From: an uncultured SAR86 cluster bacterium
GTDB lineage: Bacteria > Pseudomonadota > Gammaproteobacteria > Magnimaribacterales > AG-339-G14
Assembly (NCBI GenBank): GCA_902527995.1
Contig: CABZRA010000006.1
Coordinates: 1 to 39,316 of the forward strand
DNA: 39,316 bases
Direction: 5' to 3'
A model generated the notes under the pieces. The model had not been told where the DNA came from and ran no database searches. It was given only the letters and a program-made list of their open reading frames with translations. The position numbers and the translations under genes are program-made. This document shows, one piece after another, positions 2,925 to 39,316 of this stretch (position 1 is the first letter of the stretch; each line of letters starts with the position of its first letter).

Positions 2925-4376
2925 ATGGTTAATAAAATTGATAAAGAATTCACCATCTTGACGATAGGCTGGTTTCCAGTTCTTATAGATAGACTTTTCA
3001 TTCCTATAGAGGCTAAAACTAAAATTAACTTTATTCACTGTCTCATGGATAACCCAGAGAGTTTAAGCATTATTAAAGAAAAATATCCAAAACCTAAGTT
3101 CATTTCAATATTAAAGGCAGAAGAAGAATTTTCAATTGAACCAGATTATAAATTGTTGGCAAGCATCGAATCTTTAGGCGTACCAACAATCAAAAGCATG
3201 ATTTTAGGTGATCCATATATAAAAAATCGCTCTGAATATGAATCTTTTGGCTACGCAACTTTTCTTGCTCGCTCCTTAAAGAAAACTTTTCAGGAATTAA
3301 AGCCAGACGTTGTTCTCGCTTCAAACGATCAGATCCACTCAGGTATAAGCTTAGCTATAGCAAAATCGTTGAATATTCCATGGGTTACTATGGCATTTAC
3401 TTCTATACCCGATAACTTAACTAGTTTTTGTTGTAGTTTAACTCCTGATACGATAATCCCCATATCACCTCAGATCAATAATAAGCACAGAAGTGAGGCA
3501 AAATCTCTTGTGGATAAGGTAATATCTGGCAAACAGCAAGTAGTGGCATATATAGAGCCTAACTCTTTTCTTGGTAGAGTTAGTATGTATAGTGTTTACA
3601 TTAAAAATTTGTTGAAGAGGATGATCGCAGGTCCTAGGCGAAGAGTTGAACTCTATACTGCGCCGACAATATGGGAGAGAGTGAAAGATATTTCTCGGCG
3701 ATCAGTAAACACTTTCACGTTGCCTCTAAAACAAATGCTTAGTTCGCCCCCAGCGGGACGTTATATTTACTACCCGCTCCATATGTCACCAGAGTCCATG
3801 ATTGATACCTGGGCGCCATTTTATCAGGATCAAATGGCTTTTATACGTCAACTATCATTTTCCATACCTGCAGATGTTGAATTCGTTGTAAAATTACATT
3901 TTAGTGATCCATATAACTATGGTTACTTTGAATTGAAGAACCTAATGCGTCATTACAATGTTCGTATAGCTAATCCCTTTGTTCCTAGCCGTCCATTTCT
4001 TGATGGGGCATCTCTAGTAGTTGGAATTACAGGTACATCAAATTTTGAGGCTGCGGTAAGAGGCAAACCTGTTTTGAAATTCGGTAATTCTCCTTACCAG
4101 CATTTTCCAAGAACTGAGAGAGCGTTGCGTCCACATGAACTTAATAGTCAGATTCAAAGAATGCTTAAGATGCCTTCACCTAGTGAGGACGAAATAGTAG
4201 AGTCTGTTGCTGTCTTTATGTCACGTTATATGCCAGGACAAATTAATGATTGGAACAGGCCATATGAATTGGACGAGCTTGATAAATATGCAGACTGTTA
4301 CTCAGCACTTGCTAGATATCTTGAAACTCCAGGTATAAAAGAGAATTGGTATAAACAACCTCCATTTGTTGAGTAA
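2925..4376 (+). CDS. Capsule-synthesis-type GT-B glycosyltransferase-like protein
   Basis: This is a 483-residue soluble protein without signal peptide or membrane segments. The C-terminal half (about 280-440) has the pattern of capsule polysaccharide synthesis/Kdo-transferase-like GT-B proteins: a YIYYPLHMSPE strand-loop, then VEFVVKLHF, a segment placing the sugar-nucleotide site around PFVPSRPFLDGASLVVG, and ITGTSNFEAAVRGKPVLKFG, which matches the TGT-x-x-E-A-x-x-x-x-K-P-V motif of that fold. The N-terminal half includes PDVVLASNDQIHSG, plausible as the acceptor domain. It lies 109 bases after the aminotransferase fusion and overlaps the TTG start region of the next gene, so both are probably translated from one mRNA. 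Donor and acceptor cannot be told from sequence. A CDP-glycerol-type transferase is an alternative. Confidence 0.62.
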   Translation: MVNKIDKEFTILTIGWFPVLIDRLFIPIEAKTKINFIHCLMDNPESLSIIKEKYPKPKFISILKAEEEFSIEPDYKLLASIESLGVPTIKSMILGDPYIKNRSEYESFGYATFLARSLKKTFQELKPDVVLASNDQIHSGISLAIAKSLNIPWVTMAFTSIPDNLTSFCCSLTPDTIIPISPQINNKHRSEAKSLVDKVISGKQQVVAYIEPNSFLGRVSMYSVYIKNLLKRMIAGPRRRVELYTAPTIWERVKDISRRSVNTFTLPLKQMLSSPPAGRYIYYPLHMSPESMIDTWAPFYQDQMAFIRQLSFSIPADVEFVVKLHFSDPYNYGYFELKNLMRHYNVRIANPFVPSRPFLDGASLVVGITGTSNFEAAVRGKPVLKFGNSPYQHFPRTERALRPHELNSQIQRMLKMPSPSEDEIVESVAVFMSRYMPGQINDWNRPYELDELDKYADCYSALARYLETPGIKENWYKQPPFVE

Positions 4377-5751
4377 TAATATTTTGATACATTCAAACTT
4401 TATAAAATTTGAAAATTTATTAATAGCGGCGATACTTTTTTATAGCGGTTTGGTTTTTTGTTTGCCAGTTCTTCCTCATTCATCGTGGGCAGAAACGATG
4501 AATTACCCTTGGTGGGCTAGCAGAATACAGTTTAACCTCATCATATTAAATGAAGCTTTATTTATTGTTTGGTTATTGCTGTTTGGCGGAAAATTTGTCT
4601 TGAGAAATATCTTTGACAAATTAGGTATACCAACTCGTCAAGCTGCAATATGCCTAATTTTTTTAGGGGTTTGGTGTGGTGTTGTCTCTGTAATTTTAGA
4701 TTTTTCCACAATTACACAAAATGTTGGCAGAACGTTTAGGCTGATACTGCTTGCTTTTATGTTGATAGCGGCAGTAAAGTGGGCAAAAAATTTAGGCATC
4801 TTTGTATTAGTGTGTTTTGTATTTGGAATACTAGTAGGTACCATTATTAATCTTATAATTTCATTTCAAAATCCATTTATTATGTGGGGATCCTTTCGTT
4901 TGCATGGGCAGAATACACCAGGAGTCTGGATTGGTTTAGCTGCACATCTTTCGGCATGGCTTTTTGCATTATCTAAAGATGTAAAAACAAAAATATTTTC
5001 TGCAGTTACTTTTTTTGTTTGTAGTTTTGCTTGCTTGCTAAGTTTTTCGAGAATTGGATGGATAGTTTTAGGGTTTGGAGTTATCTCCTGGCTTATTCTT
5101 TTAACTTTTAAAGCGAAATCTAATAGTAGAAAGAATACATTTATTACCTTTTTTATTCTTTTAATACCATTAAGCGTGCTTATTCCATCTTCACAATTCA
5201 CAAACATATCTAGCGATGTTATAAAACTAGTTAATCAGAAATCTTGGATAGGTAGTGTTAGTAACTCAGAGAGATATAGTTACATCTTTGGAACTGCCGA
5301 AATCGTTCTAAAAAATCCGCTTGGAGTAGGTTATTCAGGATTTTATGATGAAATGATAGAAACACAAATATATAAATCTGGGGAAGCTGCCAGAGAAACA
5401 AGACCCGAAGAAGCAAACCCTCATATGACTTTTCTTTGGTATGCTAGCACTGGGGGGATTTTAGCTTCCTTTTTATCAATCTTTTTATTTTATTTCTTGG
5501 CAAGGTCTATTAAAAATAATCTGATTAGACTATTTGGTCGACCTGGGTTGGTATTGTCGATTTGCTTTATAGTTTCAATGTTCATGATTGGAGTAACAGT
5601 ACCTTATTTATTCAATAGCCTTATTTTTTATCTCCCAGTAGCAATTACATCTGGCTTGGTAACATCTCGGTTGGATCGAGATCATGAATTTGATTTCTTG
5701 GTTGCCAACGGAATCTCTCGTAGAAGTAATTTTAGCAGCCAGACTAATTAG
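4366..5751 (+). CDS. O-antigen polymerase/ligase-type membrane protein (Wzy/WaaL family)
   Basis: This is a polytopic inner-membrane protein of ~460 residues with roughly ten to eleven hydrophobic segments, beginning with one at about residues 15-37. The large periplasmic loop carries KNPLGVGYSGFYDE followed by NPHMTFLWYASTGG, the layout of the O-antigen ligase/polymerase family, where the loop Arg and His residues handle the lipid-linked glycan. It would polymerise undecaprenyl-linked repeat units or ligate the glycan. The start is uncertain: TTG codons at 4366, 4369 and 4384 are in frame and no ATG occurs before the first membrane segment. The GAG at 4371-4373 would serve the 4384 TTG best. 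The first two TTGs overlap the end of the preceding gene, implying coupling. As the only such protein here, Wzy is more likely than WaaL. Confidence 0.8.
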   Translation: MLSNNILIHSNFIKFENLLIAAILFYSGLVFCLPVLPHSSWAETMNYPWWASRIQFNLIILNEALFIVWLLLFGGKFVLRNIFDKLGIPTRQAAICLIFLGVWCGVVSVILDFSTITQNVGRTFRLILLAFMLIAAVKWAKNLGIFVLVCFVFGILVGTIINLIISFQNPFIMWGSFRLHGQNTPGVWIGLAAHLSAWLFALSKDVKTKIFSAVTFFVCSFACLLSFSRIGWIVLGFGVISWLILLTFKAKSNSRKNTFITFFILLIPLSVLIPSSQFTNISSDVIKLVNQKSWIGSVSNSERYSYIFGTAEIVLKNPLGVGYSGFYDEMIETQIYKSGEAARETRPEEANPHMTFLWYASTGGILASFLSIFLFYFLARSIKNNLIRLFGRPGLVLSICFIVSMFMIGVTVPYLFNSLIFYLPVAITSGLVTSRLDRDHEFDFLVANGISRRSNFSSQTN

Positions 5752-5911
5752 AATAGTTCTTAAATTAATACCATCTCATCGAGTACAAATACAGAAATTT
5801 TTTTTATGATTTTTACGAACATGATACATTCAAACACATACTTTTATGAATGCGTTTTTAAACCATACTTAAGAAGTTGGAGCTTGAATTGAAATCAACT
5901 AATCTTTTGGA

Positions 5912-7078
5912 ATGTATAATATTTGGTGTTTTGTCATGTTAGGCAAGAAACTTGTTTCTGGATTCGGGATACTTTTTGAACCGACAAAGACTACATCAGG
6001 TCAACGTTTTTTTAAGGAAATGTTTGAAACTCTGGAATCTGAGGTTGTTCCATTCGAGCAACGGCCTAAGATAGTGCTTTTAAATATCTCTGCTCCTTGG
6101 TTTGAGTTCTTTAAAGCCAAGTGGCGTAGACAAAAGTTGGTAGTGCGTGTAGATGGGTTATGGATGGACAGAATTTCATTGCCTTATTTAGAACAGTTCT
6201 CGTGGCCTATGAGAGCCTTATTGAGCATGGGTTTATATTATCCTCGATTACATAACCCTTTAGCCCATATTGCTAATTTCTTTGTTCAAAATTATACAGC
6301 TTTTTTCCGAATTGCCTTGGCTGATCATGTGATTTATCAGTCAGAATATTCTCGTGTTTTACACCAAACTTATTTTCCAAAAAAAACCTCTAATATTATT
6401 GTAAATGGTTCTACTTTTAAGGGAGGGTTAATACCTACGAAGAAAAATTTAACAGAAATAAGGTTGGTTGTTATTTATAGCGCACAATCTAGTAAATGTA
6501 TCTATGAAACAGTTCAGTTTGTCCGATGGCTTTTTGAAGAGAAAGGCTTGTCAGTAGAGCTTGTAATTCTTGGTTATACTGGCGAGATACCAGAAATGGC
6601 ACCCAGGGACATGAAGCAGTTGATAGAGAATTCTCAATTTGTAAGGACACTTCCTTGGTTTAATGAGTTTACTAATGAAATAAGTGCCGAGCTAAATACA
6701 GCTGACTGTTATCTTTGCTTCAGTCGAAGAGACCCATGCCCTAACGCGGTCGTAGAAAGCATGGCTCATGGCTTGCCTGTAGTTGGAATTGCTAGTGGAG
6801 GGATACCAGATATTGTAGGCGATGCTGGCGAGCTGGTGCCGATAGATGACTTTTGCAATGGATTTTTTGCAGCACATCGTTGGGAGCATGACTTCAGACC
6901 TATCAGTTTTGATAGTGTATATGAAGCGCTGCAGAAAGTTTTAGATGCCCCACAAGAGTATCGGTCTAGGGTCAAACGACGCTTTTTAAGCCAACTTGAT
7001 ATTTCAGTTACAGCTAAGTTTTATGCAGATGTGCTTATAGAGGTAGGAATGTTAGATGACTCAGGAAAGGATTTGTAA
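5912..7078 (+). CDS. GT4 family glycosyltransferase
   Basis: This is a 388-residue GT-B fold enzyme. The C-terminal nucleotide-sugar domain is clear: a VIYSAQSSK strand-turn, FVRTLPWFNE, then CFSRRDPCPNAVVESMAHG followed by LPVVGIASGGIPDIVGDAGE, the E-x7-E type donor-binding motif of retaining GT4 enzymes. The N-terminal domain is less conserved, as expected for the acceptor side. It should add one sugar to a lipid-linked intermediate at the inner face of the membrane. An ATG at 5912 and a second in-frame ATG at 5936 (residue 9) are both possible; neither has a good Shine-Dalgarno. It is separated by 160 bases from the polymerase upstream and 181 bases from the next gene; a TATAAT at 7185-7190 in the latter gap lacks a matching -35 box. 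Confidence 0.85.
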   Translation: MYNIWCFVMLGKKLVSGFGILFEPTKTTSGQRFFKEMFETLESEVVPFEQRPKIVLLNISAPWFEFFKAKWRRQKLVVRVDGLWMDRISLPYLEQFSWPMRALLSMGLYYPRLHNPLAHIANFFVQNYTAFFRIALADHVIYQSEYSRVLHQTYFPKKTSNIIVNGSTFKGGLIPTKKNLTEIRLVVIYSAQSSKCIYETVQFVRWLFEEKGLSVELVILGYTGEIPEMAPRDMKQLIENSQFVRTLPWFNEFTNEISAELNTADCYLCFSRRDPCPNAVVESMAHGLPVVGIASGGIPDIVGDAGELVPIDDFCNGFFAAHRWEHDFRPISFDSVYEALQKVLDAPQEYRSRVKRRFLSQLDISVTAKFYADVLIEVGMLDDSGKDL

Positions 7079-37607: not shown

Positions 37608-38582
37608 ATGGACTTAGCAAAACTTAAAGCAGGTTTAAAAAAAGATTTTATCTCATCTTCGTCTTCTGAAGATCTTCAAAAATTAAAAGTTAAGTATTTT
37701 GGAAAAAAGGGAAAAATCACCAATTTATCTAAGCAACTTGGTAAATTAGATATAAAGCAAAGACCCAAGGCTGGAAAAAAAATCAATGAGTTAAAACTTC
37801 TTTTTGAAGTACTAAATAAATCAGCAAGTCAAAAAATTGAGAAAAAAGAACTTGAAACGGCTATTTCTAAAGAACAGATCGACGTCTCTCTACCAGTTGA
37901 TTCTGATTATATCGGCGGATTGCATCCAATCACACGCACAATAGAAAAAATCTGTTCTTACTTTTCTGCTAAAGGCTACTTAATTGAAGATGGGCCTGAA
38001 ATAGAAAGTGAATATTACAACTTTGACGCTTTAAATATTCCTCAAGATCATCCAGCAAGAGATATGCATGATACTTTTTATCTTGATTCAGGGAAATTAT
38101 TAAGAACCCATACATCCCCAGTACAAATCCATGCAATAGAAAAACATAAAGTTCCTCTGAAAATACTTTGTCCAGGAAAAGTTTATAGGAGTGACTCAGA
38201 CCCGACTCATACCCCTATGTTTCATCAAGTGGAAGGATTGTTAATTGATGAAAGTGTAAATTTTGGTAATTTAAAAAAAGAATTAATAGATTTTCTAAAT
38301 TACTTTTTTGATAAAAATCTCCAAGTAAGATTTAGACCTTCTTACTTTCCCTTCACTGAACCATCCGCTGAGGTAGATATTATGGATAAGAAAGGTTGGC
38401 TTGAAATTATGGGTTGTGGCATGGTGCATCCTAATGTTCTGGAGATGTCAGGTATCGATTCTAAAAAGTATTCAGGTTTCGCTTTCGGTTTAGGAATCGA
38501 AAGAATGGCAAAGTTAGATTTTTCAATTAATGACATGCGTGTTTTGTTTGAAAATGATTTGAAAGCAATTTCAGGAAAATAA
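37608..38582 (+). CDS. pheS: Phenylalanyl-tRNA synthetase alpha subunit
   Basis: This 324-residue protein has the N-terminal coiled coil (about 1-85, rich in lysine) and the class II catalytic core: GGLHPITRTIEKICSYF, TFYLDSGKLLRTHTSPVQ, CPGKVYRSDSDPTHTPMFHQ (motif 2) and GFAFGLGIERMAKL (motif 3). The length is close to the E. coli protein (327). It works as an alpha2-beta2 enzyme with PheT, whose gene begins directly after the stop. The N-terminal coiled coil that contacts tRNA-Phe is present, which matters because the PheT partner lacks its own N-terminal tRNA-binding domain. Confidence 0.97.
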   Translation: MDLAKLKAGLKKDFISSSSSEDLQKLKVKYFGKKGKITNLSKQLGKLDIKQRPKAGKKINELKLLFEVLNKSASQKIEKKELETAISKEQIDVSLPVDSDYIGGLHPITRTIEKICSYFSAKGYLIEDGPEIESEYYNFDALNIPQDHPARDMHDTFYLDSGKLLRTHTSPVQIHAIEKHKVPLKILCPGKVYRSDSDPTHTPMFHQVEGLLIDESVNFGNLKKELIDFLNYFFDKNLQVRFRPSYFPFTEPSAEVDIMDKKGWLEIMGCGMVHPNVLEMSGIDSKKYSGFAFGLGIERMAKLDFSINDMRVLFENDLKAISGK

Positions 38583-39316
38583 ATGAAATTCCTTAAGTCT
38601 CACCTTTTAGAAAAAGTACCAATGAAAATTGATACTTCAAAACTTGAGTCTGAATTGACAAGACTTGGATTAGAGGTTGATTCAATAGAAAAACTTAAAA
38701 ATAAGTCTGATGTTTTATTTGATCTAGACTTGACGCCAAATAGAGGAGATTGTTTTAGTGTTCTTGGCATTGCGAGAGAGCTGGCAGCTGTAAGTAACAA
38801 AAAAATTAAAAAGGAAAGCAATGGCTTAATAGCTTCTAAACTTTCACCAAACTCAAAAGTTAAAATCTCCGCAAAAGCTGCCTGTCCAAGATACTGTTTT
38901 ATTGAAATATACAATTTAGACAATACAAAAAAGTTACCTAGTTTTATTAAAGAAAGACTTGAGGCGGGTGGAATTAACTCTATAAATCCAGTTGTGGATA
39001 TTTTGAATTATGTAATGTTGGATTTAGGACAACCAATGCACGCCTTTGATTTAAATAAAATTGGAAAGCAGATAAATGTAAGATTCGCTAAATCAAAAGA
39101 AAAAATTCATCTTTTAGATGAATCTTCTAAAGTTTTAAATGACAAATGCCTTGTTATATCAGATGAGAAAGAGCCTTTAGCTTTCGCTGGCATAATGGGG
39201 GGTATTAAATCTTCGGTATCTGCAACTACTGATTCGGTTTTTATAGAATCTGCTTTTTTTGCTCCAAACATTATACGAGGTAAAGCAAGAAACTTTAATA
39301 TTCAAACTGATTCTTC
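38583..39316 (+). CDS. pheT: Phenylalanyl-tRNA synthetase beta subunit, 3' truncated by window, lacking the N-terminal tRNA-binding (B2) domain
   Basis: The frame runs open to the window end (244 full codons). It begins MKFLKSHLLEKV, the first half of domain B1, with GLEVDSIEKL at about 29-38. In a normal PheT an OB-fold tRNA-binding domain of about 110 residues (with HPNADKL and CGAPN motifs) then interrupts B1; here the sequence passes at once to DLDLTPNRGDCFSVLGIARELA (shown as TPNR at 51-54), the second half of B1. No trace of the OB motifs occurs and the frame is uninterrupted. The editing B3/B4 region follows intact, with PVVDILNYVMLDLGQPMHAF and PLAFAGIMGG. It follows pheS without a gap. 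Similar loss is known for mitochondrial and some other PheRS forms. Confidence 0.93.
   Translation, partial: MKFLKSHLLEKVPMKIDTSKLESELTRLGLEVDSIEKLKNKSDVLFDLDLTPNRGDCFSVLGIARELAAVSNKKIKKESNGLIASKLSPNSKVKISAKAACPRYCFIEIYNLDNTKKLPSFIKERLEAGGINSINPVVDILNYVMLDLGQPMHAFDLNKIGKQINVRFAKSKEKIHLLDESSKVLNDKCLVISDEKEPLAFAGIMGGIKSSVSATTDSVFIESAFFAPNIIRGKARNFNIQTDS

Follow-up and report, generated by a model that had tools for sequence, protein, structure and literature searches.

The pheT gene at the end of the window (the whole stretch of 39,316 nucleotides analysed here, from an uncultured SAR86 cluster bacterium) encodes a genuine N-terminus of the β-subunit of phenylalanyl-tRNA synthetase (PheRS) that lacks domain B2, the tRNA-binding OB fold inserted into domain B1. 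We consider it highly probable that an ancestor of the SAR86 order lost B2, and that the PheRS of this lineage charges tRNA-Phe and edits at its B3/B4 site, with the capture of mischarged tRNA less well assisted.

The gene starts directly behind an intact pheS (37608..38582, plus strand; 52% identity to Escherichia coli PheS, 318/324 residues), the stop codon of which adjoins the pheT ATG at 38583. The gene order thrS-infC-rpmI-rplT-pheS-pheT is that of E. coli, except for the pheM leader. From 38583, the reading frame runs without a stop for 244 codons up to the last base of the window, and these codons (38583..39314, plus strand) form the 5' part of a gene that is ended by the contig end. 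The source genome is a metagenome-assembled genome (MAG), 71% complete and in 45 contigs, and the remainder of pheT lies elsewhere in this genome, on contig C30 (C30:6-1094), where it corresponds to residues 313–677 of a same-genus protein; approximately 68 pheT codons between contigs C6 and C30 are unseen. Each of the 2 contig pieces is a partial match to the bacterial PheT model TIGR00472, with 208 and 314 bits for a cut-off of 402.65, and the complete pheT of a same-genus genome (G004) matches this model with an E-value of 3.5e-174. The window protein matches TIGR00472 at 5.5e-65 versus 9.4e-7 for TIGR00471, the model for archaeal and eukaryotic PheRS β.

The sequence proceeds from the first half of B1 (38583..38693, plus strand; residues 1–37, aligned to E. 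coli 1–38) via a short linker (38694..38711, plus strand; residues 38–43) to the second half of B1 (38712..38820, plus strand; residues 44 to approximately 79), which carries the TPNRGDC motif. The editing domain B3/B4 follows at 38880..39314 on the same strand (residues 100–244, incomplete at the contig end) and is recognised by Pfam with an E-value of 2e-50 (PF03483); the PhetRS_B1 match (residues 5–69) is weak and under its cut-off, and a Pfam search of the window PheT did not find a tRNA_bind domain (PF01588). TIGR00472 matches only at model positions 1–46 and 158–359, leaving a gap at 47–157 (approximately 111 positions), and PheT chains in the PDB align in 2 pieces, with query residues 1–38 and 37–243 corresponding to E. 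coli 1–38 and 150–355. B2 and its linkers comprise approximately 113 residues in E. coli. The first-pass annotation had described a clean, in-frame loss of an OB fold of about 110 residues that leaves B1 continuous, the frame open and the editing motifs intact, and these results bear it out; the roughly 10 residues that it counted between the 2 parts of B1 shrink to about 6 (38–43 in the model). In the full-length PheT of a SAR86 relative, the domains B1a/B2/B1b/B3-4/B5/B6-7/B8 measure 38/3/37/209/76/209/105 residues, so that apart from B2 every domain is of unchanged length.

An AlphaFold model of the 244 residues in the window, based on a 36-row alignment, has a mean pLDDT of 90.7 and shows B1 as a closed unit: strands 31–37 and 44–49 (pLDDT approximately 90) are joined by a 6-residue turn at the B2 insertion point. 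Foldseek retrieves the PheT proteins of Pseudomonas aeruginosa (best), Acinetobacter baumannii, and E. coli, with query TM-scores of 0.91–0.92. At the level of individual residues, a 97%-identical relative retains G261, P263, H265, G318, E334, and T354 (E. coli numbering), which we take to be the editing-site residues of PheT, and there is S or A at position 356. Across B2-less PheT, His265 (84/88), Gly318 (88/88), and Glu334 (85/88) are conserved, as is Thr/Ser354 in nearly all, and the editing site is therefore under selection. As raw counts, R244 is present in 91 of 102 B2-full versus 17 of 88 B2-less rows; with 3 independent pairs and a p-value that is not significant, we rejected a coupling between B2 loss and the change at R244. 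Changes in B1/B3 (R9, W233, and R240) were likewise rejected as signs of altered editing, as they also occur in fast-evolving B2-full families (f133).

The same junction is present in close relatives at 97%, 92%, 77%, 76%, and 72% identity. A survey of 61 genomes from 4 families of the order, of the kind that the first-pass annotation had proposed, gave a PheT match in 55, with the deletion common to every intact frame. The matching frames are 634–691 aa long (E. coli PheT, 795), the exceptions being the window's own gene, a stop-interrupted gene (G033), and a 328-aa partial frame (G039). Single-contig genomes (G004, G040–G042, and G059) are among those with the junction. This order corresponds to SAR86: the named SAR86 assemblies AH-779-I09 and AG-914-M02 gave the same PheT alignment results as 2 relatives in the window's family, and the PheT proteins of other members of the order match further named SAR86 assemblies. 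In the stop-interrupted case (G033:C1:758887-759610), the PheT of a SAR86 relative is broken by a TAA and in pieces, either through sequencing error or as a pseudogene.

A tRNA_bind domain (PF01588) does occur elsewhere in the order, in 98 of 117 genomes. The window's own genome has neither a PF01588 match nor a recognisable metG, which is consistent with its completeness of 71%. Families f1, f2, and f4 carry the domain as a free-standing frame of 110–118 aa that is 47–58% identical to residues 569–677 of E. coli MetG and gave no match to PheT B2 at an E-value of 0.01 or better. Its gene lies directly behind a metG frame of approximately 550 aa. For most f1 genomes, the metG stop and the start codon of this gene overlap (AATGGATGA); the overlap in an f4 genome reads AATGAGTGA, and in an f2 genome the metG TAA is just upstream of the ATG, 1–2 bases apart. 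As judged from these sequences, the C-terminal tRNA-binding OB domain of the SAR86 methionyl-tRNA synthetase (MetRS) in f1, f2, and f4 is a separate, coupled gene that follows the anticodon-binding part, and the overlap suggests translational coupling or reinitiation. A representative split locus is L205 (G005:C1:225000-234000; positions 4131–6105, minus strand), and the split is also seen in L200, L201, L204, L206, L207, L209, L210, and L211. Family f3 has a fused MetG and a B2-less PheT, so the absence of B2 is independent of the MetRS split.

These observations bear on the alternatives to an ancestral loss. A gene ended by the contig border, in a MAG of such completeness and fragmentation, invites the suspicion that some 330 bases were dropped in assembly or binning of this genome only. 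However, the junction is shared by close relatives and by all PheT frames of the order that are intact, in single-contig genomes as well as in SAR86 assemblies from other projects, which excludes chance or assembly error and leaves an artefact with practically no probability. B2 might instead have moved to a separate gene that supplies the OB domain to PheRS in trans, and in favour of this, f1, f2, and f4 have free-standing tRNA_bind proteins, and many tRNAs are bound by OB proteins of this kind (PMC11286949). We regard this as very improbable: the free-standing frame encodes the C-terminal domain of MetG and begins on, or immediately beside, the metG stop, f3 has a B2-less PheT despite its fused MetG, and the other B2-less families show a single tRNA_bind domain in a MetG-sized frame (assigned by frame size, not individually typed). 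The search for a separate gene encoding PheT B2 thus came back empty. A broader version, in which f1, f2, and f4 would have remodelled all their synthetase-linked OB domains, with B2 gone and the MetRS domain freed as a dimerising tRNA-binding protein that could serve several synthetases in trans, including PheRS, in the manner of a minimal Arc1p/AIMP1-style cofactor, is in our view highly unlikely as well. Finally, the loss could be one step in a decay of PheRS editing, with relaxed proofreading and tolerated mistranslation of Phe codons. The contribution of B2 to editing that is ascribed to Roy & Ibba 2006 speaks for this possibility, but the conservation of His265, Gly318, Glu334, and Thr/Ser354 in B2-less PheT indicates a selected editing site, making such a decay improbable.

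To delineate the distribution of B2-less PheT, a profile describing the B1 junction without B2 was run over 369 gammaproteobacterial genomes. The matches are bimodal, being either contiguous, with frames mostly of 640–760 aa, or split, with frames of approximately 795 aa. Nearly all contiguous matches have E-values below 1e-18, with the divergent G311 and G155 near 1e-15. Outside the order, contiguous matches occur in families f40, f42, f76, f81, f99, f108, f138, f145, f166, and f172; together with f20, where PheT is B2-less by alignment and too divergent for the profile, this amounts to 11 gammaproteobacterial families besides the SAR86 order. In 398 genomes sampled across the phylum, a set in which none of these families is represented apart from the window itself, the window's own was the only contiguous match among the best-scoring matches listed. 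Named organisms with B2-less PheT include Syntrophomonas and Syntrophothermus (Bacillota), 2 "Deltaproteobacteria" MAGs (Myxococcota in NCBI), candidate division B38, one Berkelbacteria of the candidate phyla radiation (CPR), a Legionellales bacterium, and several gammaproteobacterial MAGs. Over 190 proteins, the B2 segment has either 0–24 or at least 80 residues, with none in between. The first-pass view that the loss is lineage-specific and unusual for a gammaproteobacterium gains no support from this survey. Two other architectural variants were seen: the B2-less PheT of f42 (L070 and L071) and G050 is also without TIGR00472 positions approximately 622–678 (B6/7), and in G388 and G177 (L057 and L058; family f121) the PheT frame of 1117 aa has approximately 320 extra residues ahead of B1, representing a fusion or an unrecognised upstream start.

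Compared with the bacterial PheRS β-subunits of known structure (TIGR00472; Thermus thermophilus 1PYS, E. coli 3PCO, and P. aeruginosa 4P71), SAR86 has the same B1, B3/B4, B5, B6/7, and B8 at normal length, the same pheS-pheT order and the same editing-site residues, but the B2 OB fold (tRNA_bind, PF01588) is theirs alone. Archaeal and eukaryotic cytosolic PheRS β (2CXI and 3L4G) have no B2 insertion. Their fold match to the SAR86 protein is, however, much weaker (query TM-score approximately 0.5 versus 0.92), and together with the E-values for TIGR00471 and TIGR00472 given above, this led us to reject an archaeal/eukaryotic type. Since B2 is not universal in the family, its absence is compatible with membership of the bacterial PheT. 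The PheRS β of CPR bacteria (e.g., OGE14653.1), for which absence of B2 has already been published (PMC5370408), is also a bacterial-type PheT without B2, in a phylum different from that of SAR86. The Berkelbacteria protein (L131) has a continuous B1 with the same junction as SAR86, but its B6/7 has 162 residues versus 209 in the SAR86 relative. The loss in SAR86 is thus genuine but not unprecedented, given that B2-less bacterial PheT is already known from the CPR. In the open-access literature, we found no report of B2 loss in Gammaproteobacteria and none linking SAR86 with aminoacyl-tRNA synthetases.

How often B2 was lost depends on the tree. A PheT tree of 89 rows requires 9 changes of B2 state, at least 3 of them on well-supported branches, and a tree of 50 rows requires 3, at least 2 of them on well-supported branches; in an approximately unbiased (AU) test, placing all the B2-less PheT sampled from Gammaproteobacteria in one clade is not rejected (p 0.41). 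Family f99 has both states, with a B2-less protein of 692 aa (L063, in G155) and B2-full proteins of 800 aa (L216 and L217, in G373 and G275), so that at least one change must be recent, via loss or gene transfer. The B2-less PheT of this family (L063) is not specially close to the B2-full members, which are absent from its top 14 matches, and gene transfer is therefore possible. Overall, the pattern fits a few old losses with some later loss or transfer. The first-pass annotation had taken the loss as streamlining of a core enzyme. In this marine member of the Gammaproteobacteria, whose genome is small, a core enzyme has indeed been trimmed, but streamlining as the cause is doubtful: B2-less PheT occurs in genomes of 2–3 Mb, such as G378 (3.0 Mb), and the B2 segment is kept in very reduced genomes of 0.3–0.4 Mb (G078 and G334). 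Streamlining alone is for this reason a poor predictor, and a weak explanation of why B2 was lost.

With regard to mechanism, an ancestor of the SAR86 order would have lost the inserted B2 from the PheT of a normal bacterial heterotetrameric PheRS, with B1 predicted to close on itself as a β-hairpin over the short linker. The resulting enzyme most likely charges tRNA-Phe as usual, and hydrolysis of Tyr-tRNA-Phe at the B3/B4 site most likely proceeds as usual too. According to Roy & Ibba 2006, as cited in PMC5370408 and PMC12494982, B2 of PheT is reported to be dispensable but to contribute to editing, which points to editing and not to charging. Their work apparently removed B2 from the E. coli PheRS, and such a construct would be an engineered counterpart of the natural state of SAR86. 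The 3' CA end of tRNA is bound by Trbp111, whose OB fold is related to B2 (PMC11286949), an activity that fits a role for B2 in handling the aminoacylated end. Without B2, the SAR86 enzyme would have no auxiliary OB fold to grip tRNA and to help deliver mischarged tRNA to the editing site, and post-transfer or trans editing may be less efficient, leaning more on core contacts.

A domain that is part of the textbook structures of bacterial PheRS can thus be dispensed with in an abundant marine lineage as well as in many further bacteria, and B2 should not be used to define bacterial PheT. For genome annotation, "missing" PheT domains in MAGs are not necessarily assembly errors. The split MetRS of SAR86 is a worthwhile side finding, and the natural B2-less enzymes offer ready comparisons for the role of B2 in charging and editing.
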